In this document: one piece after another, positions 8,648 through 25,872 of the stretch
How the letters are laid out: the number at the start of each line of letters is the position of its first letter
Position numbering within the stretch: position 1 is the first letter of the stretch
DNA from: a virus
IMG/VR virus record: IMGVR_UViG_3300022744_000092
Coordinates: 1 to 26,154 of that record
DNA length: 26,154 nt
Direction: 5' to 3' (one strand)
Made by a program: the position numbers and the translations under genes
Notes under the pieces: model-generated
The model's database searches: none
What the model saw: only the letters and a program-made list of their open reading frames with translations
Told to the model about the DNA's origin: nothing

Positions 8648-10686
8648 GATTGCTCCTTCATCTGTTGAAGTTTTTGCTGATGTTGTTGCTCACCATGTAC
8701 AAGACCTTGATTAGCTTCGGCTTGTGCTTGAGCAGAGAAAATGCGCTGCATATGGATTTTTTCGGCAGCATCTAGTTGTGCCATTTGTTCCTTATGCGCC
8801 ATGTTTTGACGGTGTTCTTGTTCCTTCATTGCCATTTGCTGTTGGCGATCACGGCTTTCAAGTTCCATCTTTTGCTGCATTGCTTCATTAGCGGTTGCAG
8901 CCTTTTGTTGTTCGATTTGAGACTTCATTGCCATTTCCTGAAGCTTAGGATCAGGAGGAGGTGGAGGTACTTGACCTGTTTGTTGAATTGCAGAAGTAAA
9001 TAGTTCTTGCCAATTAGGTTGTTCTTGTGCTTCTAGTACACGAGAAATTACCTTAACTGGATCTAACATACCACTTGGTAGTAATTCAAGTAGTCCTTGT
9101 GCTTTCATTAATTTATCAGTCTGTGACATAGCATTGGGGTCTGCACCCGGGCAAATGTCATACGATTTATCATCAAAATCAGACTGATCAACAGGAATAT
9201 CTAACACTGTTTGATACTCTGTAGGGTCTAAATAAACTTTATTAAGTTGATAAAGTTTTTGTAGTTCGCTACTCAAAGCACGATAAATACGCTTATATAC
9301 GGCTGTAAATACTTTCATGCCCTGCTCAATAGTAGCCATTGTTGTAGTAGCAGGGGTATTTTGGCCAGGCATTTTACCTACAAAAATTTCAGCTACTGAG
9401 GCAAGTTCTTTACCAGAGGTAATTAGAGTTCCCATTAACTGAAATAAAACAGCAGACGGCTCCTTTGTAGGGAGCGGTAGAATTTGTTTCTTAAGATCAT
9501 CAGCAGTGCTGTTAATGGTTTTCCATTCACCGGGTTTGAACTGATGTTCACCCATCTTGAGCTTTAGTCCTTTACCTAAGAAACCTGCTTGAAGGTTGTT
9601 TAGGTGACCAGCATCTAATAGTTGGTTAATAAGTGTGTTAACGGACTCGTTAAGAGGTCCAAGTAATACACCAAATCCAATGTCGTAAAAACTACCATCT
9701 GGATTAGGAATAAAACCATATTTGGTGTAATAATGAATTGGTCTAATTTCTTGCAGCTCATGTTTTTCATTCAGGTAAATACCTGTTTCATCATATCGAG
9801 CTACAATTCGTAGAATTTTCTTTGAGTATCGCTCAAAAGTGACAATATATGGCTCAGGATAATCATCACCATCATTATCAAAAAAGCAATGCTGTTCAAT
9901 AATAGTGTATGGAAGTGTCTCATCTTGACGCATTCCTACAACATTGTTAGAATCTAGTACGTATACTGGATCACCAATATCTGCTTTAGCAAAAATACCT
10001 GACATTTGACGTGATTTTAAAACACGCTTAGACATATAAATAATCTCGGAGACACGTTCCGCGTCTTCGAGAGTTTTTGTCCAGTAATCTACAACTAAAT
10101 TTTCTGGTAATACCAGTTCAGATACATTTTGCTTAATAACAGAATTAAAATATGTCTTTTTAAAAACCATCCCAACAATGGGAAGCATCATTAGTAGCTT
10201 ATCCATGTCTTCTTCCCAACCTTGCATTTCATGCAGTAGTTGATAGGACATGAATTTGCTTACGCGATCCGCTTTTTCTTTCTTTTGACCATTTAGGTCT
10301 TTACCAATTACACTGGTTTTTACAATGTCACCGGTACTTGGTACTAAAGAAGGGTACGCACGAGCATTAAATTGCATTGCCGCTGTTGAAAGCAGCGGAT
10401 ACTTGACGTTACTAGCACCCGGCCACGGGTATGTTTTTTGTTCTTTTACTTGCAGAGCAAGTTTTGTCCATTCTTTTGCAGCTTTTTCCCAATCAGCACG
10501 AGATTTAAGGTCATGTTCAAACCCATCAGAACACTGATTAGCTAGTTTTTCTAAATCTTCTTTAGAAAACTTGTCAATCAAATTCATACTTTCTGTTTGA
10601 GCCCGAAGTGATTCAATATCCTGTGAGGGCTGATCGGCCATCTGCTCCGATGTTGGATCGTTCGAGTTCATCATAGTATAGTTCAT
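8557..10686 (-). CDS. Portal protein
   Basis: This protein of up to 709 residues is typical of podovirus-type portals. It has an N-terminal helical region (KEWTKLALQVKEQKTYPWPG then ASNVKYPLLSTAAMQFNARA), the portal core (KTYFNSVIKQNVSELVLPEN, LVVDYWTKTLEDAERVSEII), and a long C-terminal Gln/Met/Ala-rich coiled-coil region (about 575-680) ending in a Lys/Pro/Ser tail. It forms the dodecameric ring through which DNA is packaged. The start is uncertain. ATG 10686 gives a 74-base overlap with the terminase end, but GAGG directly abuts it. ATG at 10674, or ATG at 10641 (residue 16, MADQPSQD) preceded by GGAG at 3-base spacing, are alternatives. Confidence 0.88.
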   Translation of the reverse strand: MNYTMMNSNDPTSEQMADQPSQDIESLRAQTESMNLIDKFSKEDLEKLANQCSDGFEHDLKSRADWEKAAKEWTKLALQVKEQKTYPWPGASNVKYPLLSTAAMQFNARAYPSLVPSTGDIVKTSVIGKDLNGQKKEKADRVSKFMSYQLLHEMQGWEEDMDKLLMMLPIVGMVFKKTYFNSVIKQNVSELVLPENLVVDYWTKTLEDAERVSEIIYMSKRVLKSRQMSGIFAKADIGDPVYVLDSNNVVGMRQDETLPYTIIEQHCFFDNDGDDYPEPYIVTFERYSKKILRIVARYDETGIYLNEKHELQEIRPIHYYTKYGFIPNPDGSFYDIGFGVLLGPLNESVNTLINQLLDAGHLNNLQAGFLGKGLKLKMGEHQFKPGEWKTINSTADDLKKQILPLPTKEPSAVLFQLMGTLITSGKELASVAEIFVGKMPGQNTPATTTMATIEQGMKVFTAVYKRIYRALSSELQKLYQLNKVYLDPTEYQTVLDIPVDQSDFDDKSYDICPGADPNAMSQTDKLMKAQGLLELLPSGMLDPVKVISRVLEAQEQPNWQELFTSAIQQTGQVPPPPPDPKLQEMAMKSQIEQQKAATANEAMQQKMELESRDRQQQMAMKEQEHRQNMAHKEQMAQLDAAEKIHMQRIFSAQAQAEANQGLVHGEQQHQQKLQQMKEQSSQQSNNGVSGKKTPAPTKSSRPSKPAPKR

Positions 10687-12112
10687 CCTCTATTTCCCGT
10701 AAAGTTGGAGCTTCAATAAGATTATCAAGCATCAAACCAAGATAAGCAAAAGCATCAACTTGGTCATCTTTAGTTCCACGAGGAAACTTACATAATTCAT
10801 CTTCAAAGATTGGATACCAATCTTGAGATTTATCAAATTTAACTCCATGCGCTCTAACTCTAGCTTGAATTGATTTAGCGCGCGCAATTTTATCTTTACC
10901 ATTATGCTTTAACAGATGAATGTTTGGAAACATTCCCCGTTTAAGCATTTCTTCTCTTAAGAATGGTCCAATTGCTTTGGACACTTGCATTTCTTCAATA
11001 CCAATTAATTCTGGTTGATATACTTTGTATAAAGAAAAGATTGTGTCTACAATTTCACGACCATCTAATCGTTCACGAATCACGTTTTTAACGTGAAGCA
11101 TTTTATTCTCATCGACACCTGCTACAAGGAACACACTGTAATCAGCCGTTTCTTTTTCTGAAATAGCTAAGTCCGCTGCAATGTAATAATTTAGTTTTTG
11201 GCGACGGTCTTCAGCAGTGTCTGTAATGAAATCAGATCGCTTAAAATACGCGACCGATTCATCAATAGGCATGTTGAGATATTCTTGGGAGTATACATCT
11301 GCAAGACCACGGTCAATAAAATCTTGCCGTTCTCGTACAAACCATTCCGTGTCATAACGACTTGCCCACAAAATTTGTCGAAAATCATCAGAGTGAGCCC
11401 GATATTTGTAAGCAATCCATGTTTTTTTAGGAGCATTGCTATATGTCTTTAATGGTGTATTAACTGTATGCTTATCGTAATCCGATGGCATTAAGTTATT
11501 TAATAGTGAATCTTCATGCAGAATTGTACCAACAATACGGATTACACCGTTAACTGCTAATGAAGGAACTAGCGCACCATAAAACCAACGCTTAAATTTA
11601 TTACGACGGTCTGCATTCATTACAATTTCGTCGTTTTCTAGATCGTCACCAATAATCAGATCCGGACGTTTATTATTCCACTTAAGACCTCGCATCTTTT
11701 GTTCGGAGCCTTTAGCTGAAATACGAAATTGATGCCCATCATCACACGTAACAATTACGTTATCTTCTGCATCTTTTTCAAACTCTTTAATTTTAAAGAG
11801 TGTACGAATTTTATCATTGTCCGCTAATTCTTTTTTAATATCACCTAAGAATTGCGTCGCCTGTGTAATAGTGTCTGAAACAATAAGAACATAGGACTTA
11901 TTACGAAATAAAACGGAAGCAAGAGCGTAAGCAAGAGTAACTGCGGTACTTTTAGCATGTCGCCGCGGCGCTGCAATAGCTACCTTTCCCCATTTTGAGC
12001 AACATGCTTCCCACCATTCATAATGACAATCCGGTGATTCCACCGCATTATCGTAATTCTTTTGTAATAGACTGCCACTAAAGCCTGCGATTACGTCAGC
12101 CGTTAATTCCAT
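10613..12112 (-). CDS. Terminase large subunit
   Basis: This 499-residue DNA-packaging motor has an ATPase domain with a Walker A-like motif APRRHAKST (48-56), a Walker B motif DLIIGDD (151-157) and a motif III-like GTILHED (195-201). The nuclease domain carries AADLA with D314, IGIEE with E373/E374, and KDDQVDAFAYLG (D449, D450, D453), the acidic set expected of the RNase H-like fold. The Walker A is the usual deviant terminase type. It starts with ATG at 12112, which lies inside the last codons of the endonuclease VII-like gene (17-base overlap). The first six residues, MELTAD, are repeated as the first six residues of that upstream gene. Confidence 0.93.
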   Translation of the reverse strand: MELTADVIAGFSGSLLQKNYDNAVESPDCHYEWWEACCSKWGKVAIAAPRRHAKSTAVTLAYALASVLFRNKSYVLIVSDTITQATQFLGDIKKELADNDKIRTLFKIKEFEKDAEDNVIVTCDDGHQFRISAKGSEQKMRGLKWNNKRPDLIIGDDLENDEIVMNADRRNKFKRWFYGALVPSLAVNGVIRIVGTILHEDSLLNNLMPSDYDKHTVNTPLKTYSNAPKKTWIAYKYRAHSDDFRQILWASRYDTEWFVRERQDFIDRGLADVYSQEYLNMPIDESVAYFKRSDFITDTAEDRRQKLNYYIAADLAISEKETADYSVFLVAGVDENKMLHVKNVIRERLDGREIVDTIFSLYKVYQPELIGIEEMQVSKAIGPFLREEMLKRGMFPNIHLLKHNGKDKIARAKSIQARVRAHGVKFDKSQDWYPIFEDELCKFPRGTKDDQVDAFAYLGLMLDNLIEAPTLREIEDELYYDELERSNIGADGRSALTGY

Positions 12113-13130: not shown

Positions 13131-13420
13131 TTACCCTTTTTAGATCGTTGTGACTTAAGACTAGAATCACTATTTCGAGAAAAAGAGCGATTAGTTGAAG
13201 CAGGAACTACACGTAAATTAGATTTAGTAGTTGTACCACCTTTTGATAGAGGAGTTTTATGGTCAACATCTTTACCATCTCCCTTGTGAACTTTACCAGC
13301 TTGTTCCATCATACGACGAGCTTTATTTTGTTCAACTCGTTTTTGAATTACTTCCGGCTTGCTCGTATACTTCGCTACTTCCTTCTTGTAATCCCGTTTC
13401 CCGTTTGTCATGTACGGCAT
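13127..13420 (-). CDS. HNH-like small protein
   Basis: This 97-residue, very basic protein contains KDVDHKTPLSKGGTTTKSNL followed by RVVPASTNRSF, the DH-x-x-PLSKGG-x-x-x-x-x-NL core of the HNH nuclease fold (the central DH and the following N). The zinc-binding Cys pairs of many HNH enzymes and the canonical last His are missing. It may therefore be a reduced HNH protein or a nicking/packaging accessory; HNH proteins next to terminase genes can take part in DNA packaging cleavage. The C-terminus is Ser/Lys/Arg-rich (SDSSLKSQRSKKGK). It overlaps the upstream HTH gene by 89 bases in another frame and the downstream holin by 4 bases. Confidence 0.65.
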   Translation of the reverse strand: MPYMTNGKRDYKKEVAKYTSKPEVIQKRVEQNKARRMMEQAGKVHKGDGKDVDHKTPLSKGGTTTKSNLRVVPASTNRSFSRNSDSSLKSQRSKKGK

Positions 13421-13955
13421 CGTTTATTTCCTTGTATTCAATTGTTTGAGCGTTGTTATTGTTTCGTTTATTAAATTTAGCAAATTCGTTTGCCAACATT
13501 TTTAATTGATCAACAATTGTTACATTGTCTACAAACGTCCGGTTGTCTAATTCTTCCAGCTTAATTTGCTGTGTCATTAAATCAGATGCTACTTTTGATG
13601 CATCCTTTAATGAGATTGGTTTTCGGATTACTTCACCAGTTTTATTGTTTAAAACAAAGTCACCATTGTCGATTAAATCTTCTACTTTTTCTAAAGATTT
13701 ATTGACAATACGACTTAATTTTGAATTCAGTTCCTGTCGGTTTGCAGATTTAACTTCTTCTACAATACGTAACCAACTAGGATGTTTTTTCCATGAAAGG
13801 ATTGTGTGATAAGGGACTTTAGTTACATCGGACACTAAGCGCAGGTTACCTAATTTTAAGATTTTTGCACACACATCAAGCTTAGTTTCGTAAGACCAAT
13901 CTCCCTTTTCATCGCGTTCACCAACGCGAGTAATGCGTAATTCTGTAGCAGACAT
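13332..13955 (-). CDS. HTH protein, putative terminase small subunit
   Basis: This 207-residue protein has an N-terminal helix-turn-helix-like region (KLDVCAKILKLGNLRLVSDV then TKVPYHTILSWKKHPSW, about residues 25-61), followed by long charged helices (ANRQELNSKLSRIVNKSLEK; DLMTQQIKLEEL) and a polar, probably disordered tail. A DNA-binding N-terminus plus helical oligomerisation region as the first gene of a packaging operon suggests the small terminase subunit, but no diagnostic motif confirms it. The start is ATG 13955, with AAGGAG a few bases upstream and a consensus promoter whose -10 lies 30 bases away. The C-terminus overlaps the HNH-like gene. Confidence 0.6.
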   Translation of the reverse strand: MSATELRITRVGERDEKGDWSYETKLDVCAKILKLGNLRLVSDVTKVPYHTILSWKKHPSWLRIVEEVKSANRQELNSKLSRIVNKSLEKVEDLIDNGDFVLNNKTGEVIRKPISLKDASKVASDLMTQQIKLEELDNRTFVDNVTIVDQLKMLANEFAKFNKRNNNNAQTIEYKEINDAVHDKRETGLQEGSSEVYEQAGSNSKTS

Positions 13956-13984
13956 AAGACTCCTTATAGCTTTATGCAGACTAT

Positions 13985-14013
13985 ATTATACCATATTTTA
14001 AAGGAAATGTCAA
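13985..14013 (-). promoter_or_regulatory. Consensus sigma70 promoter for the leftward (late) operon
   Basis: On the minus strand, TTGACA (complement of 14008-14013), a 17-base spacer and TATAAT (complement of 13985-13990) match the sigma70 consensus exactly, with an extended -10 TGG directly before TATAAT. The predicted transcript starts about 20-25 bases before the ATG at 13955. Such a perfect site should be used by unmodified host polymerase. Confidence 0.85.
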
Positions 14014-14045
14014 TAGTTTAAAGGAAAGGTATGGGCGCAGCCCTA

Positions 14046-14073
14046 TTGACAAATTTTACAAAATACATATAAT
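14046..14073 (+). promoter_or_regulatory. Rightward sigma70 promoter facing the origin-like region
   Basis: TTGACA (14046-14051), a 16-base spacer and TATAAT (14068-14073) lie on the plus strand. No gene follows for 1.4 kb, so it may give a short RNA or a transcript through the origin-like DNA. The surrounding AT-richness raises the chance of a fortuitous match for the -10. Confidence 0.5.
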
Positions 14074-14696
14074 ATAATTAATATAATTATATGTATTTAA
14101 TGTATTATTTATTGTATTTATTTCTTTTCTTTCTTTAGAGAGTTTAAGAGAGACTTTTCTTTCTTTTCTTTGTAGGTAAGAAATGTACTGGGAGCGTCAG
14201 CGACCTAAATGCTCAGGAAGGGGTCTAAAAGCCTCTATAAGCTCTTAAAACAAGGTAGTAGCTACCCATGTACCTAATACCCTATTTTAATGTCTTATAG
14301 GGCCTTATTTCAAATTTTTATAAAAATTTTACAAGGACTCTCTCTGCATCATTATAATTTTCAAGTTTTCCCCCCCCCACCCCCGGTCAAAATTTAATTA
14401 AAACTGCCTCATTTTATAGCAGTTATGTGATATGGTACTCTACCATACGATACAATCAGCATACTGACGGTACTGATTCGATATAGTACGGTAATGCACT
14501 TTCATCTAGTTAAAGGCTTACAGTTACACCTACAGAATCGACCGACTGTCAAGAATCAGACTAGGTTAGTGGGGCTTGTTCACATTGTGAGAATGCCCGG
14601 CAAGGCCCCTGGAAGGCCCATAGAGCGATTTTTCACCCCTCAAGCTACCCTAGTCCCACAAAAAAGTTATCCCGCGCTCCTAGGACTATTCACAAG

Positions 14697-14705
14697 TTAT
14701 CCACA
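14697..14705 (+). promoter_or_regulatory. DnaA box (perfect)
   Basis: TTATCCACA matches the high-affinity DnaA box exactly. A one-mismatch copy, CTATTCACA, lies immediately upstream at 14686-14694. Confidence 0.7.
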
Positions 14706-14730
14706 GCTCATTTCCTAGGTAAAAACGAAG

Positions 14731-14739
14731 TTATCCACA
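14731..14739 (+). promoter_or_regulatory. DnaA box (perfect)
   Basis: This is a second exact TTATCCACA in the same orientation, 34 bases after the first. A one-mismatch box in opposite orientation (TGTGGATAG, 14753-14761) follows, making four box-like sites within 76 bases. Confidence 0.7.
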
Positions 14740-14931
14740 AACTATTCACCGCTGTGGATAGTTACAAATTCTCACAAGTTAAGGGTTTCCCCCATTGACA
14801 ACCCTCCCAGGCGTGCTACAGGCGCGCGCATGCGCGTTACGCGCGTCTAGACAAACGCGCGAGGCCTCGGCGCGGCGAGCGCACGCGAGAGGCAATACCC
14901 GACTAAATTAGTCAACTAAATAGCCCTACTC

Positions 14932-14960
14932 TTGACATGGGTACTTAATCCTTTTAAAGT
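14932..14960 (+). promoter_or_regulatory. Rightward promoter of the early operon
   Basis: TTGACA (14932-14937), a 17-base spacer and TAAAGT (14955-14960, four of six consensus bases) form a sigma70-type promoter. Transcription would start near 14967, directly ahead of the boxA-like element and the long leader. Confidence 0.65.
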
Positions 14961-14966
14961 GGAGCC

Positions 14967-15537
14967 CAGTCGATAACAAGACTATTCTTTAACAATTTAA
15001 CTCTCGCGGTGGGTGGGGGTTGGCCTTAAAGCCAATCTCCGGCCTAGGCTCCCACTCACCGGACGGCCTGACGCCCCACAAGGGGCAAGCGCGCAACGCT
15101 TAATCGTGGCCGTTGTATGTTCCGCACTCTAGGTGCAATCTCGGACGGTTAGTTAGTGCAACGGGGCGGCCCCATGTCCTAAGCTCAGAGCCTCACAGTA
15201 GGCGCGCAGCGCGGCAGCGGCCCGATAGAACCCGGTCAACCCTTAGGGGGTTTATGCATACTCTGCCCAGTAGCGATAAGTCATAACCAAACTAGACGGA
15301 ACCATCAACGGCTAAAGGCGACGCCCGTACTCGCGTGAAAGGGTGGGTTCAACGGTCGATAAATAACCCGGCATGGTATCAATGGCACGCCGCCTAAACC
15401 GGGGGTTTAAATGCGAAGCTGTGAAGCTAACGCAATGGCGCAGTGATGCGCCTATTGATTCTTATTAAACGGGATTAATAGGTGCATCATTCCGATGCAC
15501 GCCCGAAAGGGTTTGATGTTCCTAACCGGAGAAAATC
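14967..15537 (+). ncRNA. Long structured untranslated leader of the early operon
   Basis: No credible gene lies in these roughly 570 bases, but several strong hairpins do. A 13-bp stem (15007-15019 with 15049-15061, two G-U pairs) encloses an inner hairpin TTGGC/GCCAA. Others are GCCCC/GGGGC (15073-15086), TAAACC/GGTTTA near 15400, a 9-bp stem CCTATTGAT/ATTAATAGG (about 15451-15482), TGCATC/GATGCA just after it, and CCC-GAAA-GGG near 15505. The last structures lie directly upstream of the first gene's ribosome-binding site. It could be an antitermination leader, a regulatory RNA, or both. I do not recognise it as a known RNA family. Confidence 0.5.
14983..14994 (+). promoter_or_regulatory. 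boxA-like antitermination element
   Basis: TATTCTTTAACA matches the rRNA-operon boxA TGCTCTTTAACA at 10 of 12 positions, and the match to rRNA leaders continues into the following AATTTA. It lies about 16 bases after the predicted transcription start and 12 bases before a long hairpin, an arrangement like lambda nut sites (boxA then a stem-loop). It probably binds host NusB/S10. Confidence 0.55.
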
Positions 15538-16206
15538 ATGGAACACAGCATGAGCAAGATTCAGCGCACCAAGTCGGCGCCTATCACTCGTGACGATGGC
15601 TCGGCGAAGCGCGTGGCAACCCGCGATGACCGCACGGTCGGGGTGCTGCTGGCGCAAGAAGTGATCGCGCTCGAAATGTCGCAGGGCAACGAGTGGCCGC
15701 GCGTGGCGAACAAGCTGTTCGATCAGACGATCGAAGCGCGCGATCAGTTCGTCAAGACCCTGCGCGAGTGGCTCGCCGATCGCCGGAAGCAAGTGATCGG
15801 TGTGCACGATTTCGACAAGAAGCGCGCCGGCAAGATCGTTGCATCGAGCACGGTGCGTGTGAGCCAGCTTGCCAAGATCGCGGAAGCGATCACGGCTGGC
15901 ATGGATCGGGAAACGGTGGTTCGTTCGATGATGAATCGGAAGAACTACGTGAGCGACGCCGAAATGGAGCAGGATGTGGAGCAGACCGCGAAAGTCGATC
16001 ACTTCCCGCAAGCCGTCGGCGTGGCAGCCATGTACAACGTGGCACAGCAGTTCGTCGGCTCGGACGCGCGTGGCCGTAAGCCCGACACGCTGCTGGTGAA
16101 GATCAGCAAGTTCATCAAGGCGAACGAGCCGAAGGAGGACACGGACCCGGCCGATGCGGCAACGTGGAAGGATCTCGTGGAGTGGTACAACTCCCAAGTC
16201 AAGTAA
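15538..16206 (+). CDS. Unknown first protein of the rightward operon
   Basis: This 222-residue protein starts at ATG 15538 with GGAG five bases upstream (a second ATG at 15550 is possible). It has a basic N-terminus (MSKIQRTKSAPITRDDGSAK) followed by largely helical, charged sequence, including GVLLAQEVIALEMSQGNEWP, VRVSQLAKIAEAITAGMDRE and VAAMYNVAQQFVGSDARGRK. The base composition is markedly GC-rich (42 of 60 bases at 15601-15660), unlike the left arm. A long opposite-strand frame covers the same DNA, but its ribosome-binding context and protein look poor. No family is recognised. As the first gene after a strong leader it is a good candidate for an early host-interaction or regulatory protein. 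Confidence 0.7.
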   Translation: MEHSMSKIQRTKSAPITRDDGSAKRVATRDDRTVGVLLAQEVIALEMSQGNEWPRVANKLFDQTIEARDQFVKTLREWLADRRKQVIGVHDFDKKRAGKIVASSTVRVSQLAKIAEAITAGMDRETVVRSMMNRKNYVSDAEMEQDVEQTAKVDHFPQAVGVAAMYNVAQQFVGSDARGRKPDTLLVKISKFIKANEPKEDTDPADAATWKDLVEWYNSQVK

Positions 16207-16906: not shown

Positions 16907-17128
16907 ATGTTCATCCGTCCGACCAACATGGCCGAAGCGTTCATCAACGCGGCGGTCAAGGTGGAAGCGAGCATGAGGGACGATCATCATCGCCGTGCAT
17001 CGCAGGATACGTGGGTCACCCGTCGTGTGATTCACAACTGCGAGCGAGGCACTTTCGGTTTGATCACCGAGCGTGACTCCCGGCCTGTGCCGCCGCAACA
17101 CAGGCCGCGTGTGTTGCAAGGGGATTAA
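16907..17128 (+). CDS. Small unknown protein
   Basis: This 73-residue protein starts at ATG 16907 (a second ATG at 16928 gives MAEAFINAAVKVEASMRDDH). The upstream signal GTGAG is modest. The product is rich in Arg, His and Glu, has an N-terminal amphipathic helix and no recognisable domain. It is isolated, with hairpin-rich spacers of 163 and 275 bases on either side. The reverse strand also has an open frame here, so the call is moderate. Confidence 0.5.
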   Translation: MFIRPTNMAEAFINAAVKVEASMRDDHHRRASQDTWVTRRVIHNCERGTFGLITERDSRPVPPQHRPRVLQGD

Positions 17129-17157
17129 CTGATGAGGCCCACCCAATAAGGGCCGAA

Positions 17158-17175
17158 ACCCGGCGAAAGCCGGGT
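17158..17175 (+). terminator. GAAA-capped hairpin after a small gene
   Basis: ACCCGGC-GAAA-GCCGGGT is a perfect 7-bp stem followed by CTTAATATTCT, a weakly T-rich tail. It is 30 bases after the stop at 17128 and may be a weak terminator or an RNA-stabilising hairpin. A second 8-bp stem, CCACGTAT/ATACGTGG, follows at 17191-17212. Confidence 0.45.
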
Positions 17176-17403
17176 CTTAATATTCTATAACCACGTATTG
17201 AGCTATACGTGGGACTTGGTTAATGGGGTGCACACCTTTAATCACGTTAATGCTCCGTCTGGTTGTGCGACCAACACATAGGAAGGTATGGCTTATGTGT
17301 TTTCGGTGTCTCACTAAGAGATCAACATCGAATCAGTACCTTGTTCCAAGGGTAACACCAGAACCCTTATCTTCTAACTCTGTTAATTGAGGAGGCTAAC
17401 GCC

Positions 17404-18108
17404 ATGCAGTCTCGTTCTTCTTTTCGCAAGCCGCCCACGAACCGCACGATGGGCATGGATCTTGAGTGTCAAGTATCGTATGAACAGTACGATAAGCTGT
17501 GGCAGAAAGGAGATTTCACGGGTTTCTGGTACATGACACGGGACGGTAGCATCCGTTACCGCGCAGGATTAGAGGGCATCGAGTTTGTCAGTGAGCCCCT
17601 GACTCCGGAGTGGTTGACGAGAGAGCTTAATCGGCTTAATAAAAAGGTCAAGTGGAAGTATGATGAGAGCTGTGGGATTCACATACACGTTTCTCGTCAA
17701 TGGCTGACGCTGGCCCGAGCCGAGCTGATCTACAAGTTCATGCGGGAGCAGATGGGTACCTACAACATGACCGAATTGTTCGGTCGTTATAACGACACCT
17801 ATTCTGCTGTGTGCTACCCCGAGTTGGGTGTTTCCCGGTACTCTGCAATTAACACGGAAAATAAAGCAACGATCGAGTTCCGTGTCTTCGCCTCTGGTGA
17901 TGCCAAGTGGGCGCAGTATTGCGTGGCGATCACGAAGTACATGATTGACAACGCAAAGCATCTCAACATCGACGCGATGTATGCGTTCTATGACAACTTC
18001 TGGAAAGGAGAAAAGCCCAACAAGGGCACGTATGTCGAACCCGAACCCGATGTCGCTCCGCGTGTGGTCACTCGGACGCTGGGTGAACTGCTTCGTTCTC
18101 GTCTGTGA
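17404..18108 (+). CDS. Amidoligase-family enzyme 1
   Basis: This 234-residue protein shows the signature order of putative amidoligases (glutamine-synthetase-like COOH-NH2 ligases). MGMDLECQ carries E21; RDGSIRY has D47 in the DGS turn; GIEFVSEPL has E60; CGIHIHVS carries H93 and H95; and YSAINTENKATIEFRVF carries N150, E158 and R160. These acidic and His residues are the ones expected to bind Mg-ATP. Such enzymes form amide bonds between carboxyl and amino groups of peptides or amines. A strong GAGGAGG ribosome-binding site precedes ATG 17404 after a 275-base hairpin-rich spacer. It is shorter than the second copy at 23285-24526 but has the same motif order, which suggests ancient duplication or two substrate specificities. 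Confidence 0.75.
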   Translation: MQSRSSFRKPPTNRTMGMDLECQVSYEQYDKLWQKGDFTGFWYMTRDGSIRYRAGLEGIEFVSEPLTPEWLTRELNRLNKKVKWKYDESCGIHIHVSRQWLTLARAELIYKFMREQMGTYNMTELFGRYNDTYSAVCYPELGVSRYSAINTENKATIEFRVFASGDAKWAQYCVAITKYMIDNAKHLNIDAMYAFYDNFWKGEKPNKGTYVEPEPDVAPRVVTRTLGELLRSRL

Positions 18109-20380: not shown

Positions 20381-20601
20381 TGGGTTATCTCCAACAAACC
20401 AACAAGATGGGTCCGTGGAAGCGCCGCAAACTTGAAAAGGGTGTACGAGGTAAGCAAGAAAGCGGAAGGTCTAAGGGTATCATTGCCTCCCCATTGGAAC
20501 GATTTATCTGTCGTTCTAATCGTAGTTATAAGCATCCGGAATACGACCGGATCATGAGTTCTCTCACTGGTGAAAAGCGGCTGCGTAAGAAGAAAGGTTA
20601 A
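20380..20601 (+). CDS. Small basic unknown protein
   Basis: This 73-residue protein is highly basic (MGYLQQTNKMGPWKRRKLEK, then KQESGRSKGIIAS and a C-terminal GEKRLRKKKG). It is coupled to the zinc-ribbon gene by TAATG and ends one base before the next start. The composition fits a nucleic-acid-binding or ribosome-associated peptide; no fold can be assigned. Confidence 0.55.
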   Translation: MGYLQQTNKMGPWKRRKLEKGVRGKQESGRSKGIIASPLERFICRSNRSYKHPEYDRIMSSLTGEKRLRKKKG

Positions 20602-20602
20602 T

Positions 20603-21235
20603 ATGTCTCGTCTCGTTTCTGCTCTGTTTCATGATTGGGGTCCGTTCGGTAGTCTGCCGGGCGTAGAAGATTTCGCTGTGGTCGATCATCACAGCGAACT
20701 ACAGAAGGGTGATATCCTCATCGTGCACGGCGGTGCCGATATCAGTCCGGCTCTTTACAACAAGAAGGTTTCTAGCTATACTTGGGCCAAGGAAGTTCCT
20801 AGCCGGCAGGATCGAATTGAATTCGACCTGATGAAGCGTGCTTGTGAGCTGGAAGCGCCCATCATTGGTATCTGTCGTGGTGGTCAGATGCTGTGTGCGT
20901 TGGCTGGTGGGTACCTTATCCAGCACGTTAACAACCACGGTGGTGGTCACAACGTCCGCACCAACGAGGGTCGGATTATTCGGGTTAATTCTCTGCACCA
21001 TCAGATGATGCAACCGGGTAATGCCAAGCATGAGCTTATTGCTTGGGCCGACGAACGTCGTAGTGATGTGTACTATGATGAGGATAATCTTGTCGAAGTG
21101 GACATTGAACCCGAGTATATCTATTTTCCTGATGTGAAGGGCTTTGCTATTCAATGGCACCCTGAAATGATGGATGGTGACGCGGAAGCCAATCAATATC
21201 TTCTCAAGGACATTGGAGAACGTCTCAGTGTTTAA
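20603..21235 (+). CDS. Class I glutamine amidotransferase-like hydrolase (peptidase C26 type)
   Basis: This 210-residue protein starts at ATG 20603; a longer upstream reading from 20570 lacks sense. It has the alpha/beta class I GATase pattern: DILIVHGGADISP (about 37-49), the nucleophile elbow IGICRGGQM with Cys91, GGGHNVRT, VNSLHHQMM, and the WHPE dyad with His186 and Glu188. The closest functional analogue is the gamma-glutamyl hydrolase/PuuD branch, which cleaves gamma-glutamyl amides. Within an amidoligase cluster it may trim or recycle amide products, or supply ammonia. It overlaps the following gene by 8 bases. Confidence 0.85.
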   Translation: MSRLVSALFHDWGPFGSLPGVEDFAVVDHHSELQKGDILIVHGGADISPALYNKKVSSYTWAKEVPSRQDRIEFDLMKRACELEAPIIGICRGGQMLCALAGGYLIQHVNNHGGGHNVRTNEGRIIRVNSLHHQMMQPGNAKHELIAWADERRSDVYYDEDNLVEVDIEPEYIYFPDVKGFAIQWHPEMMDGDAEANQYLLKDIGERLSV

Positions 21236-21503
21236 TTTCGCTAATTTTGATGCGCGGAACGGTTCTACTTTTTGCTGCTGCTGCGGATCCGCGAAGTATG
21301 ATTCAATTGCTTCCTGCCAGAAAGCCGACTGTAACATGGGAGTGGAACTTTTCCCTACTGCGACGGATGTTAGTAAAGATGACAATGGGGACTATTATCT
21401 CCACAGTGTTAAGATTGCGGATGGTACGTATCTTTCTTTTAAGATGCGTACTTCCTCTGAACCTCCCGTTTACGAAGATGATGAGGACGATGATGACTAC
21501 TAA
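21228..21503 (+). CDS. Cysteine-cluster protein with polyacidic tail
   Basis: This 91-residue protein has a GTG start at 21228, chosen because GGAG lies nine bases upstream and the frame overlaps the previous stop as neighbours do. It begins MFNFANFDARNGSTFCCCCG and continues to SCQKADCNMG: six cysteines in 23 residues, plausibly a metal-binding knuckle. It ends in the acidic tail SSEPPVYEDDEDDDDY. Its place between a GATase-like hydrolase and a COOH-NH2 ligase, together with a tail made of carboxylates, makes it a speculative acceptor of amide conjugation. The function is otherwise unknown. Confidence 0.6.
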   Translation: MFNFANFDARNGSTFCCCCGSAKYDSIASCQKADCNMGVELFPTATDVSKDDNGDYYLHSVKIADGTYLSFKMRTSSEPPVYEDDEDDDDY

Positions 21504-21909
21504 CGTGTACAATGTGTACTGGGACTCGATCAAGCCTTGGACTATTAATCAATTTCCAGAGGCTTGGATGGCCGACGGCACGCGAATCAGTTCTCTATAT
21601 CAGTTACATTTTCGTAACCGGCACGGTTATAAAGATAACCTTAAACGGGAGTGGTACGCCGACACGGACTACATTCGGTTGGAGCATGAGCGATTTATCC
21701 GGATAATGAAAGACTCTTATGGTTTCCCGGGTATTTACATCTACATCATGACGACTGAGCAGAAAAAAGGATTTGACGCAATCATTTCTAAAGAACAATA
21801 CAAGCCTGTTTTTGGTGAACTTCTGTGGCAGTCTGAGCAAGCTGCCGTTAATCGCAATTATTGCGACTATGGTCCCCGTCTGAATGTTTACGTCTTTAAA
21901 AAGGATTAA
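21493..21909 (+). CDS. Unknown protein of the amidoligase cluster
   Basis: This 138-residue protein starts at ATG 21493 (or the adjacent 21490), with GAGG six bases upstream inside the previous gene's end. It begins MTTNVYNVYWDSIKPWTINQ and is rich in Tyr, Trp and Phe (YADTDYIRLEHERFIRIMKD, YGFPGIYIYIMTTEQKKG). It ends one base before the next start. It is an alpha/beta-looking protein of unknown family, probably part of the same pathway given the tight coupling. Confidence 0.65.
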   Translation: MTTNVYNVYWDSIKPWTINQFPEAWMADGTRISSLYQLHFRNRHGYKDNLKREWYADTDYIRLEHERFIRIMKDSYGFPGIYIYIMTTEQKKGFDAIISKEQYKPVFGELLWQSEQAAVNRNYCDYGPRLNVYVFKKD

Positions 21910-21910
21910 T

Positions 21911-22702
21911 GTGAGCAAGACTTTTTCCCTTGGTGCTGATCCCGAAATGTTTCTCGTGGATGCGGCTAATTCGCTTGTGTCGGCCATCGGCCGGATCGGT
22001 GGTAGCAAGGAAATGCCATTGCCTCTGGTGGAAATCGGTGACGGTTTCGCTGTGCAGGAAGATAACGTGGCGGTGGAGTACAACATTCCACCGTCGCATA
22101 GCCGTATCGCATTTGAGAACAACATCACAATGGCGATGGAATGTCTTACGACTCGTGTTCGTGACATGGGTCTTAAGTTCATTAATTTGAGTGCAGCTCA
22201 GTTCCCCAAGGAACAACTGAGTGATCCTCGGGCAATGGTGTTTGGTTGTGATCCTGACTTCAATGCTTGGAAGGATGGGCGTAAGAATCCCCGCCCGCGT
22301 GCAACGGATGCTACTCTGCGTACCTGCGGGGGACACGTTCACGTTGGCTATCGTTTCGAGTCGCCTGAAGATGTGATTTCTTTTATCAAGCATATGGACC
22401 TGTTTACCATTGGCTCCGTGCTGATGGATAAGGGTGAACTGCGTAAGGAACTGTATGGTAAGGCCGGCGCATTTCGGTTCAAGCCCTATGGTTGTGAGTA
22501 TCGCAGTCTGTCTAACTTCTGGATCTTCGATAAGAAGTTGACGAATTGGGTTTGGGACTGCGCTTCGATGGCTATGTACGCATGGCAAAACAAGAAGATT
22601 GATATTGATGCGGAAGCCAAGATGATTCTGTCGGCTATTAACAAGAATAACAAGGAAGCCGCGTCGATTCTGATTGACAAGCATAACCTTCTGGTGGTTT
22701 AA
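21911..22702 (+). CDS. phiEco32-type COOH-NH2 ligase
   Basis: This 263-residue protein has a GTG start at 21911 (AAAGGA upstream; adjacent to the previous TAA). It carries the conserved landmarks of the phage phiEco32-like COOH.NH2 ligase type 2 family: FSLGADPEMF (G8-ADPE12), QEDNVAVEYN (E50, E56, N58), TCGGHVHVGY (H142, H144) and YGKAGAFRFKPYGCEYRSLS (K184, R189, E196, R198). These build the ATP/metal site of the glutamine-synthetase-like fold. It is expected to join a carboxylate and an amine, probably on a peptide or amino-acid derivative. It overlaps the next gene by one base (TAATG). Confidence 0.9.
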   Translation: MSKTFSLGADPEMFLVDAANSLVSAIGRIGGSKEMPLPLVEIGDGFAVQEDNVAVEYNIPPSHSRIAFENNITMAMECLTTRVRDMGLKFINLSAAQFPKEQLSDPRAMVFGCDPDFNAWKDGRKNPRPRATDATLRTCGGHVHVGYRFESPEDVISFIKHMDLFTIGSVLMDKGELRKELYGKAGAFRFKPYGCEYRSLSNFWIFDKKLTNWVWDCASMAMYAWQNKKIDIDAEAKMILSAINKNNKEAASILIDKHNLLVV

Positions 22703-23292
22703 TGTACGACACTTATACGCAAGAAAATCAACGTGATTTTGCTGCGAGGTATTGCGATACTTTTGGTTGGCTGATTGACGAAAAGCGTAACAACAAACGC
22801 TTAGTCTATCTGGCTGAAACTGACGGTGATCATCTGTATTTCTACTCTCAACTTGGGGGTGTAAAGCAGCATACGATCGCCGGTGCTGGTGTGATGTTTG
22901 AATTTATCCCGGTCGATCATGGGTGGTTCAAAGCAGACAACGGTGCTATCTATCTGCTGACTCGCGTCCCGGCGCGGCAGTGGAAACGTGGTATCAGTCG
23001 CAGCAATACTAGCATTACGGGTATTACCGGGAATAACGTTCCCGTGAATTTCGAGGTAATGTCCAGTATTTTTAATGAGAAAAATCCTCAAACGTACACG
23101 TACTCTTCGGCCCGTCCAATCGCATTGTCTAAGCATTTTGCAATTGATGCTAAGAAAAACGTATTCTTTTACGACAGCTTGATTGGTACCGAAGACAATG
23201 GTATTATCACGCTTAAAAACAATCACGTTCTTCAAGAGCTACAGGATTTGGTTCGTCGTAAGAAACTTCCTCTGGAGATTAAAGTTGGCTAA
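22702..23292 (+). CDS. Unknown protein between two ligases
   Basis: This 196-residue protein is translationally coupled to the COOH-NH2 ligase through TAATG. It begins MYDTYTQENQRDFAARYCDT and contains the beta-rich stretch HLYFYSQLGGVKQHTIAGAG, then IYLLTRVPARQWKRGISRSN, and ends DLVRRKKLPLEIKVG. Composition suggests a soluble alpha/beta protein. Lying between two ligases in an overlapping gene chain, it is likely an accessory or substrate-handling protein. No family is recognised. Confidence 0.7.
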   Translation: MYDTYTQENQRDFAARYCDTFGWLIDEKRNNKRLVYLAETDGDHLYFYSQLGGVKQHTIAGAGVMFEFIPVDHGWFKADNGAIYLLTRVPARQWKRGISRSNTSITGITGNNVPVNFEVMSSIFNEKNPQTYTYSSARPIALSKHFAIDAKKNVFFYDSLIGTEDNGIITLKNNHVLQELQDLVRRKKLPLEIKVG

Positions 23293-24526
23293 ACCACTGA
23301 CTATTGCCCGTTTGTTCGGGCGCCGTAATCCTACTGTGTACACGGTGGAAACCAGCCTGTTGGGCAAGTTTGCAGATGATAAGGGTCCCGACCCTTTTCT
23401 GCTATACGGTGTCGAGCTAGAAATTGAAAATGCTTCTAGCGATTGGACCGTTGATGGTATGCAATGGAAGGAAGACGGCAGCTTACGTAACGAAGGGCTT
23501 GAGTTTATTACTCAACCAATGCATTACACGACGCTATCCCGCTGTCTTTCCACGTTCTTTGAAACGGAACTTGATTCGGATAATTACTCCGAGCGTTGCT
23601 CTATTCACGTTCATGCTAATTGCTTGGACATGACGCTCCAACAAGTAACCACGCTGCTCATGATGTATCAGACGTTTGAGCAGGTGCTGTTTCACTTCAT
23701 CGACAACAATTCTAACCCTAGCTGGAATCGTCAACAGAACATCTTCTGTGTGCCGTGGTCTGAGACGCAGCTCACTTTCCGAGCATTACAAGAAATGGCG
23801 GAGGGTAATTATCATCTTCTACACCGTTGGCAAAAGTACACTGCACTGAATCTCATTCCACTTGGTACTCAAGGAACGATTGAGTTTCGTCATATGGGTG
23901 GTACCAATGATCTGACCTACATCAATATGTGGCTGCGGATTATTGGACATCTGTTCCGCGTTGCTAAGTCGTATGAATTTGATTTTATTAAATCTCGGCT
24001 GGTCAACCTTAACACCACATCGCAGTATGATGCTATCTTAGACTTTGTGTTTGCCGAGTGTGCGGATTCTCTCCGTACGTTTGGATATCACTACTGTCTG
24101 GAGAATGGTGTGCTTAATCTCAAGTATGCTTTGGCTCCTACAGCGGACACGTTGGGTAGTATGGCAGCTTCAGAAAGGCGTGAAGCTGCTCGTCAGCGAA
24201 ATCGTCAGTGGGTTGAAGCACAAGTTCCTAATGGAGCTAATCCTGTGCCTTTCGGGGGTGCGGGGGAGCTTTTGCGCCGAGCACCCCCGATCCCACTCGG
24301 AGTTTTTGATGAAGCTGAACGTATTGTTGAGGCGGTAGGGGGCCTTAATGTGAATATTCGTAGGGCTGATGATCTTCTGCGTCGGATTGACGAACGTGTC
24401 GCCGCTCGGAGACAGGATATCCTTGATGCCACGATCAATGGTACTCAGGCACCCGTGCCTCAATTTAACTGGACTCCTGACGGTCGTTGGATTGCTGCTG
24501 ATTTCCCTCGTAACGAAGATCGTTAA
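23285..24526 (+). CDS. Amidoligase-family enzyme 2, extended
   Basis: This 413-residue protein has a TTG start at 23285, supported by GGAG seven bases upstream and an 8-base overlap with the previous gene. The same motif set as amidoligase 1 appears: YGVELEIE (E44, E46), EDGSL (D64), GLEFITQP (E73), CSIHVHAN (H108, H110), TALNL (N189) and GTIEFRHMGGT (E200, R202, H203). The catalytic region is followed by an extra C-terminal part of about 100 residues: Ala/Arg-rich helix, Gly/Pro linker, then another helix (DEAERIVEAVGGLNV..., RRIDERVAARRQDILDA). That part is not needed for catalysis and could bind a partner or substrate. It likely forms an amide bond in the same pathway. Confidence 0.78.
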   Translation: MAKPLTIARLFGRRNPTVYTVETSLLGKFADDKGPDPFLLYGVELEIENASSDWTVDGMQWKEDGSLRNEGLEFITQPMHYTTLSRCLSTFFETELDSDNYSERCSIHVHANCLDMTLQQVTTLLMMYQTFEQVLFHFIDNNSNPSWNRQQNIFCVPWSETQLTFRALQEMAEGNYHLLHRWQKYTALNLIPLGTQGTIEFRHMGGTNDLTYINMWLRIIGHLFRVAKSYEFDFIKSRLVNLNTTSQYDAILDFVFAECADSLRTFGYHYCLENGVLNLKYALAPTADTLGSMAASERREAARQRNRQWVEAQVPNGANPVPFGGAGELLRRAPPIPLGVFDEAERIVEAVGGLNVNIRRADDLLRRIDERVAARRQDILDATINGTQAPVPQFNWTPDGRWIAADFPRNEDR

Positions 24527-24546
24527 TTAACAAAGGTAAATAGAAT

Positions 24547-25872
24547 ATGTGTGGTATTGTTGGATTTCTGTCTGGTTTCAGTAACGGTTTTGCTTACAGC
24601 GAGGCCAAAGCTTTTACGGATATGCTTTTTGTTGACACGTTGCGTGGGTTTGACTCGACGGGTGTCTTTGGTGTTTCTAATCGTGGTAATGTCCATGCAC
24701 TGAAAGAAGCGTCGAACGGTGCCTCCTTCATTGCTAACAAGCAGTATGACGAATTTATTTCTGACGCTGTGCGTGAAGGTGTGTTTCTTGTTGGGCATAA
24801 TCGTGCTGCGACTCGCGGTGAAGTTGTGGACCGTAATGCCCACCCGTTCTGGATTGATGACAACATCTTTCTTGTTCAGAACGGTACTTGGAAGGGCAGT
24901 CACAAGCATGTGAAAGACACTGAGGTTGACACCGAAGCGCTTGCTCACATCATTGCGGAGTCTGAAACTATTGACGCTGCTGTCAAAAAGATTGATGCAG
25001 CTTACGCTCTTGTGTGGTATAATGTGAAGGAAAAGTCTCTTAATCTTCTGCGTAATACCGAGCGTCCGCTGTTCATCAGCCGTACCAAGAATGGTGGTAT
25101 CATGTTTGCCAGTGAACCTACTACTATTCTGTTTGCTTCGTCTCGTCAAAGTATTGATTTGATGGAGAAGCCGTACATGCTGGCGGATGGTAATTTAGTT
25201 CAATATAAACTGGACGACAAGACTCGCACTTGGGAAATGGAGCAGCGTGAGATTGATATTAAGCCGGATGTTTCGTATGAAGGTTACTACGATCAATGGA
25301 GTAATTTTCGTCGAGGTTACGAAATCCCTTATCAAACTAGTCGTCGGCTAAACAATTACTCGTCGCATAATGTTCACGATCTAGCTCCTATTACGATGGC
25401 CGCTGCTGGCATGGCGAGTGATATTGATACGACTACTACCATCGGTGAAATTATTCGTAATAATGAAGAGTTCAATCCCTTTTGTTACGATGAATCAGTG
25501 GCTCAAGGGTTGTATGAGGAGTATTTCAAGTTCCCTATTAATCGTAGGCTTGTGATTGCTTTTAACACCTATTATCCTGCCAACGATCATCCTAATTGTA
25601 GGGCTTGGTATATTGCCGGTACGGTTCTTACGTCGAGTGATGATGAGCCTTCGCCGGTTACGTATGCCATCATGATTAACAAGACTGAAGGTGAGATTCA
25701 GCAGATGCTTGCTGAAGAGTTTTACACTGTTGCCCCATCCACTCCGGTGCGACATAAGATAGGTAATGGTAAGGGACAGATTGTTACGGTGTTTGTCCCG
25801 AGCACTGGCCTGCGTGCTTTATCTCAAATCCCTACTATCAAGGAAGAAAACAATGACTCGTCGATCCATTAA
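24547..25872 (+). CDS. Class II glutamine amidotransferase (Ntn hydrolase)
   Basis: This 441-residue protein begins MCGIVGF, so after Met removal Cys2 becomes the N-terminal nucleophile. Further class II GATase landmarks are RGFDSTG (33-39), GHNRAATRG (H84, R86), AHPF (H99) and QNGTWKG (N112). The GATase domain spans roughly residues 1-200 and releases ammonia from glutamine. The remaining 240 residues have no recognised synthase domain, unlike GlmS or PurF, and include a Tyr/Arg-rich segment (YEGYYDQWSNFRRGYEIPYQ). Ammonia could be passed to the neighbouring ligases, or the domain could act as an amide hydrolase. AAAGG precedes the start; the end overlaps the ATP-grasp-like gene by 20 bases. 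Confidence 0.88.
   Translation: MCGIVGFLSGFSNGFAYSEAKAFTDMLFVDTLRGFDSTGVFGVSNRGNVHALKEASNGASFIANKQYDEFISDAVREGVFLVGHNRAATRGEVVDRNAHPFWIDDNIFLVQNGTWKGSHKHVKDTEVDTEALAHIIAESETIDAAVKKIDAAYALVWYNVKEKSLNLLRNTERPLFISRTKNGGIMFASEPTTILFASSRQSIDLMEKPYMLADGNLVQYKLDDKTRTWEMEQREIDIKPDVSYEGYYDQWSNFRRGYEIPYQTSRRLNNYSSHNVHDLAPITMAAAGMASDIDTTTTIGEIIRNNEEFNPFCYDESVAQGLYEEYFKFPINRRLVIAFNTYYPANDHPNCRAWYIAGTVLTSSDDEPSPVTYAIMINKTEGEIQQMLAEEFYTVAPSTPVRHKIGNGKGQIVTVFVPSTGLRALSQIPTIKEENNDSSIH

Follow-up and report, generated by a model that had tools for sequence, protein, structure and literature searches.

Whether a cluster of DnaA boxes between two divergent operons of a tailed phage is a binding site for the host initiator DnaA, and whether such a site serves as replication origin, was asked for a viral-contig record that was analysed over its whole length of 26,154 bases (the window). 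A tailed phage that encodes a polymerase and a helicase is commonly taken to supply an initiator itself or to do without one; with a conserved DnaA array, such phages would be linked to the host replication initiator, and the start of replication in a phage without a recognised initiator would be explained. The record is probably a fragment, and the window is a piece of an approximately 50-kb phage akin to Alcaligenes phage vB_Af_QDWS535 (50,121 bp). Among named complete genomes QDWS535 comes nearest in gene content, a second close one being Caudoviricetes sp. MW202796; QDWS535 has the same divergent layout and encodes a primase, a DnaB-like helicase and a family A polymerase of its own. The leftward operon of the window carries tRNAs, the terminase large subunit, portal and other head genes, and the rightward operon carries a conserved early gene, tRNA-Leu and a cluster of amidoligase, COOH-NH2 ligase and glutamine amidotransferase genes. 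The genes used for orientation were:

10613–12112, minus strand: terminase large subunit (phrog_38 match, 2.9e-82)
13332–13955, minus strand: leading gene of the leftward operon, which its position alone makes a candidate for the terminase small subunit
15538–16206, plus strand: first gene of the early operon, a conserved family of unknown function kept in relatives

Positions 13956–15537 (about 1.6 kb, the control region) between the leftward terminase operon and the rightward early operon are non-coding, and the location given by the initial annotation, non-coding DNA between divergent operons, was borne out. The protein encoded at 13332–13955 had no family match. The conserved protein encoded at 15538–16206 was considered as the missing initiator and rejected; the family search was without significant match, and its all-helical model was of low confidence (pLDDT 57.5). 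Kinship of the region with phiKZ-like phages was also rejected, as the blastn matches cover the tRNA-Leu gene only. Further downstream, 20570–25872 (plus strand) holds a phiEco32-type cluster of peptidase C26, COOH-NH2 ligase, amidoligase and class II glutamine amidotransferase genes. Relatives (n = 80) were collected by a terminase-profile scan; scans with the single proteins 15538–16206, 24547–25872 and 13332–13955 returned no relatives. In one locus (L007:1330–3429) the terminase match extends over 2.1 kb as against 1.5 kb, which suggests an intron or insertion in terL. The nearest relative having the control region is L017 (77% terminase identity), a circular contig of 51,893 bp (genome G008).

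The boxes in the control region were, from left to right:

14667–14672, plus strand: partial box TTATCC of possible relevance, 30 bp before box 1
14686–14694, plus strand: weak DnaA box CTATTCACA, two mismatches, with a 2-bp gap to box 1 (tandem pair, 11-bp period)
14697–14705, plus strand: DnaA box 1, exact sequence match to TTATCCACA, kept at the homologous place in L017
14731–14739, plus strand: DnaA box 2, exact TTATCCACA, 34 bp after box 1, AAGTTATCCACA being repeated exactly
14753–14761, minus strand: DnaA box 3, inverted, CTATCCACA, one mismatch, an exact TTATCCACA in L017

Both exact boxes of the initial annotation were thus recovered, on the plus strand; of its two one-mismatch boxes the inverted one stands, whereas CTATTCACA at 14686–14694 has two mismatches to TTATCCACA and one to TTWTNCACA. 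Two exact boxes at most 60 bp apart arose in none of 2000 dinucleotide shuffles of the whole window, and at least two exact boxes within the intergenic region in 3 of 20,000 shuffles. The cluster is real and beyond chance.

Conserved spacing of the boxes in related phages, which had been proposed as a check, was found in the nearest relative: L017 has exact boxes with 56 bp from the first to the inverted box, as in the window, and TTATCT 30 bp before the first box, as the window has TTATCC. At +35, where the window has box 2, L017 has the weaker TTGTTCACA, and the first member of its 11-bp pair, CTGTTCACA, is weak. Exact boxes also occur in the control regions of L018, L246, L045, L014, L053, L063 and L065 (a single one each in L246 and L014), and a same-strand 9-mer pair at an 11-bp repeat in the window, L018, L045, L053, L063 and L065; the core in most box-bearing relatives is two same-strand 9-mers, 11 bp apart. 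All exact boxes of G008, G009, G019, G021 and G027 fall inside the control region of the respective contig. Loss of the boxes in close relatives had been named as evidence against the claim and was seen in part: the control regions of L008 (69% terL), complete QDWS535, L024, L026, L030 and others are without exact box, and no shared replacement repeat or iteron was found in the relatives without boxes, whereas L017 and the loci listed above keep theirs. The control region of QDWS535 resembles that of the window in gene order, divergent operons, a C-tract and a tandem-G.A hairpin (described below), and differs in having no exact DnaA box. Across 45 control regions TTATCCACA ranked first among 1680 9-mers of the same composition (14 copies against a mean of 1.26), a result that is to be read as enrichment and not as a probability because related loci are non-independent; its density was 0.118 per kb in control regions and 0.013 per kb on the structural side, an approximately nine-fold difference. 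A chance or relic origin of the boxes, as unselected 9-mers within AT-rich DNA, would fit the unremarkable number of matches with at most one mismatch in the whole window (9 against 6.95 expected) and the missing boxes in some relatives; it is contradicted by the shuffles, the permutation test and the conserved spacing, and is very improbable. With non-chance clustering and conservation of position, the host-DnaA-type site of the initial annotation is well supported, and host DnaA likely binds at the array.

A DnaA-assisted replication origin is the best single explanation of the array, and we put it at somewhat short of an even chance. Situated in the control region that separates the packaging/structural operon from the early/replication operon, positions 14686–14761 would constitute a host DnaA binding array that consists of the tandem pair with its 2-bp gap, one further consensus box and one box in inverted orientation. 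Early in infection, host DnaA would load cooperatively on this array and help to open or mark the region, after which the phage DnaB-like helicase, primase and PolA-type polymerase would begin bidirectional copying; melting could proceed from the AT-rich DNA on the left or be assisted by supercoiling from flanking promoters. DnaA binding, origin activity and helicase loading are steps that we infer, and the replisome genes are those of the closest complete relative, the window being a fragment: G008 encodes primase, DnaB-like helicase, PolA, exonuclease and ThyX, and no initiator was recognised among its proteins searched. In the window, no iteron array was found in the control region and no initiator family among the proteins searched. 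An origin of plasmid or phage-plasmid type was rejected, as 72,556 plasmid records contained nothing similar to the region and neither RepA nor iterons were found.

Cumulative GC skew, which had been proposed as a check of the origin, was analysed on relatives. The minimum lay in or at most 0.8 kb from the control region in all six complete or near-complete relatives, and in circular G008 the maximum was antipodal, 49.8% of the genome away from the minimum. Gene orientation switches at the same point as the skew minimum, so the skew is confounded and does not count as independent evidence; since the two operons are transcribed outward from the region, the pattern could come from transcription alone. 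The remaining landmarks of the control region and its promoters were:

13985–14013, minus strand: sigma70-like promoter TTGACA-17-TATAAT towards the terminase operon (consensus match only)
14046–14073, plus strand: sigma70-like promoter TTGACA-16-TATAAT, rightward (consensus match only)
14060–14175: AT-rich and polypyrimidine stretch with the thermodynamically weakest DNA of the region at about 14080–14100
14190–14205, plus strand: putative RNA hairpin GGGAGC-GTCA-GCGACC with tandem G.A pairs, the 16-mer identical in the window, L017 and L045
14366–14384: C-tract TTTTCCCCCCCCCACCCCC, a landmark to the left of the boxes that is conserved among relatives
14815–14890: CpG-rich block with GCGC/CGCG palindromes (GC 0.72; 18 CpG against 9.9 expected)
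14932–14960, plus strand: sigma70-like promoter TTGACA-17-TAAAGT towards the early operon (consensus match only)
14982–14999, plus strand: rrn boxA-like CTATTCTTTAACAATTTA (motif TTCTTTAACAAT) in the early leader, after the early promoter

The flanks described by the initial annotation were compared with these positions. Its CpG palindrome cluster on the right was confirmed at about 14815–14890, and L017 and L045 likewise have CpG-rich blocks on the right side of their boxes, while L008 has a similar block. The AT-rich/polypyrimidine DNA on the left is present at about 14060–14175; it does not adjoin the boxes, being about 500 bp away with the C-tract in between. No AT-rich unwinding element adjoining the boxes was present: the weakest DNA is about 600 bp off, and the boxes sit in DNA of average stability. 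In E. coli oriC, low-affinity sites with 2-bp gaps favour cooperative DnaA binding (PMC6727663), and the 11-bp tandem arrangement of the window matches these 2-bp-gap arrays; consensus R boxes accompanied by weaker boxes are a further point of likeness, and so would be the GC-skew minimum, as seen in relatives and subject to the confounding by gene orientation. The window differs from oriC in having only 3–4 recognisable boxes and no adjacent AT-rich unwinding element; its array, of putative origin activity, belongs to a lytic-type phage that has a helicase and a polymerase of its own. P1 oriR likewise has tandem same-strand DnaA boxes on phage DNA (TTATCCACA/TTATCCACT, 62891–62908), but it needs the initiator RepA and iterons, neither of which was found here, and serves a plasmid prophage.

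Similar arrays were searched for by a box-pair scan of viral contigs, which returned at least 120 loci; among the matches listed, 24 loci also carry a terminase or portal relative (23–34% identity). The arrays of these distant loci, with up to 11 exact boxes each, lie in non-coding DNA in 23 of 24 cases if the middle box is taken as reference, and most often they precede the terminase operon. Neighbouring boxes shared a strand in 85 cases and were on opposite strands in 9, with spacing peaks at 11 bp (22 cases) and 22 bp (10 cases); the loci were chosen for having boxes, so these figures describe arrangement and not frequency. Environmental phages with such arrays upstream of terminase genes are, among others, L197, L112, L126, L165, L167 and L211. 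The T7-like Shigella phage vB_ShiP-A7 has exact boxes at 22, 56, 82 and 127, and similar arrays were found in P483, Klebsiella VLCpiA2a and Vibrio BD5; the T7 genome ends carry no such box. Neither T5 nor the T7-like phages are known to use DnaA in replication. The origin claim of the initial annotation is accordingly no more than plausible: the T5 injection stop signal and the terminal repeat of vB_ShiP-A7 carry similar arrays, in phages not known to start replication with DnaA, and for this reason an origin was kept below even, and weight was given to a role at the genome end or in DNA entry and, to a smaller degree, to regulation or a decoy.

An array in or beside the terminus of the packaged genome is an unlikely reading with several parallels. 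DnaA bound at such a place would not serve initiation; it would take part in the entry of the DNA, by way of a pause such as has been proposed for the T5 injection stop signal, or else in the processing and packaging of concatemers. The exact boxes of vB_ShiP-A7 sit within a 177-bp terminal repeat mapped by sequencing (PMC8427288), and the record of phiEap-1 carries five exact boxes near each end. Both phages resemble the window in having several same-strand TTATCCACA boxes, mostly 11–34 bp apart, near packaging genes; their arrays are denser and lie inside or near direct terminal repeats. The T5 injection stop signal, among whose characteristics DnaA boxes have been listed (PMC13250531), has one exact and three one-mismatch boxes. 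This signal, a non-coding region of about 1 kb, resembles the control region here in its repeats and its pairs of DnaA boxes, which in T5 are 12 bp apart; it sits in the T5 left terminal repeat, whereas the present region is known from assembled contigs. That the boxes precede the terminase operon in the window, as they do in most of the 24 distant loci, also agrees with a genome end, but G008, G012 and QDWS535 assemble through the region unbroken, and no mapped terminal repeat was found for this phage group. Many contigs end upstream of terL, which was considered as proof of a genome end and rejected: near-complete G010 breaks within the C-tract and has some 115 nt of the region at its two ends, which resembles a sequencing or assembly problem, so the breaks were not counted as evidence for termini.

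DnaA bound between the divergent promoters could also tune early transcription, or the array could titrate host DnaA, with replication starting otherwise. The sigma70-like early promoter is about 170 bp downstream of the boxes, other promoter-like sites are near, and DnaA is known as a transcription factor, one source giving uvrB as an example (PMC6015884). The number of boxes is small for effective titration, however, and the conserved geometry (11-bp pair, inverted partner at 56 bp) suggests a specific complex, which leaves regulation or a decoy less probable than a genome end and well behind a DnaA-assisted origin.

The hairpin at 14190–14205 was followed in 43 loci. It was found on the rightward strand in 24 loci as against 6 on the other strand (control dinucleotides, 0–8 loci), mostly 70–270 nt left of the C-tract in relatives. 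The stems vary among relatives by compensating changes; as the search required pairing, the strand contrast and not these changes is the evidence. Rfam contained no family matching the hairpin, which is likely an undescribed structured RNA. The boxA-like TCTTTAACA of the window's early leader, which recurs in similar form in L018 and, with two motifs each, in L017 and L008, suggests NusB/NusE-type antitermination of the early operon.

The recurrence of arrays beside terminase genes and in T7-like terminal repeats raises the general question of the purpose for which phages employ host DnaA. Phased DnaA-box arrays beside terminase genes may be a recurrent, possibly convergent device by which lytic tailed phages draw the host initiator to a single control locus, where the array would serve as origin, mark the genome end or do both; in the group of the window this device would be joined with an undescribed structured RNA (the tandem-G.A hairpin) and an rRNA-like boxA leader; we offer this tentatively, as more doubtful than a DnaA-assisted origin in the window and slightly less so than a genome end.

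Further observations concerned single genomes. In Microvirus mar31 (L241), the intergenic stretch 1504–1661 holds twelve copies of TTTTCCACA, eleven of them with an exact 11-bp period. In G008, the DNA polymerase is split around an HNH-like ORF (16959–17489), and the ribonucleotide reductase (L216:9466–12081, minus strand) appears to hold an intein-like insertion.
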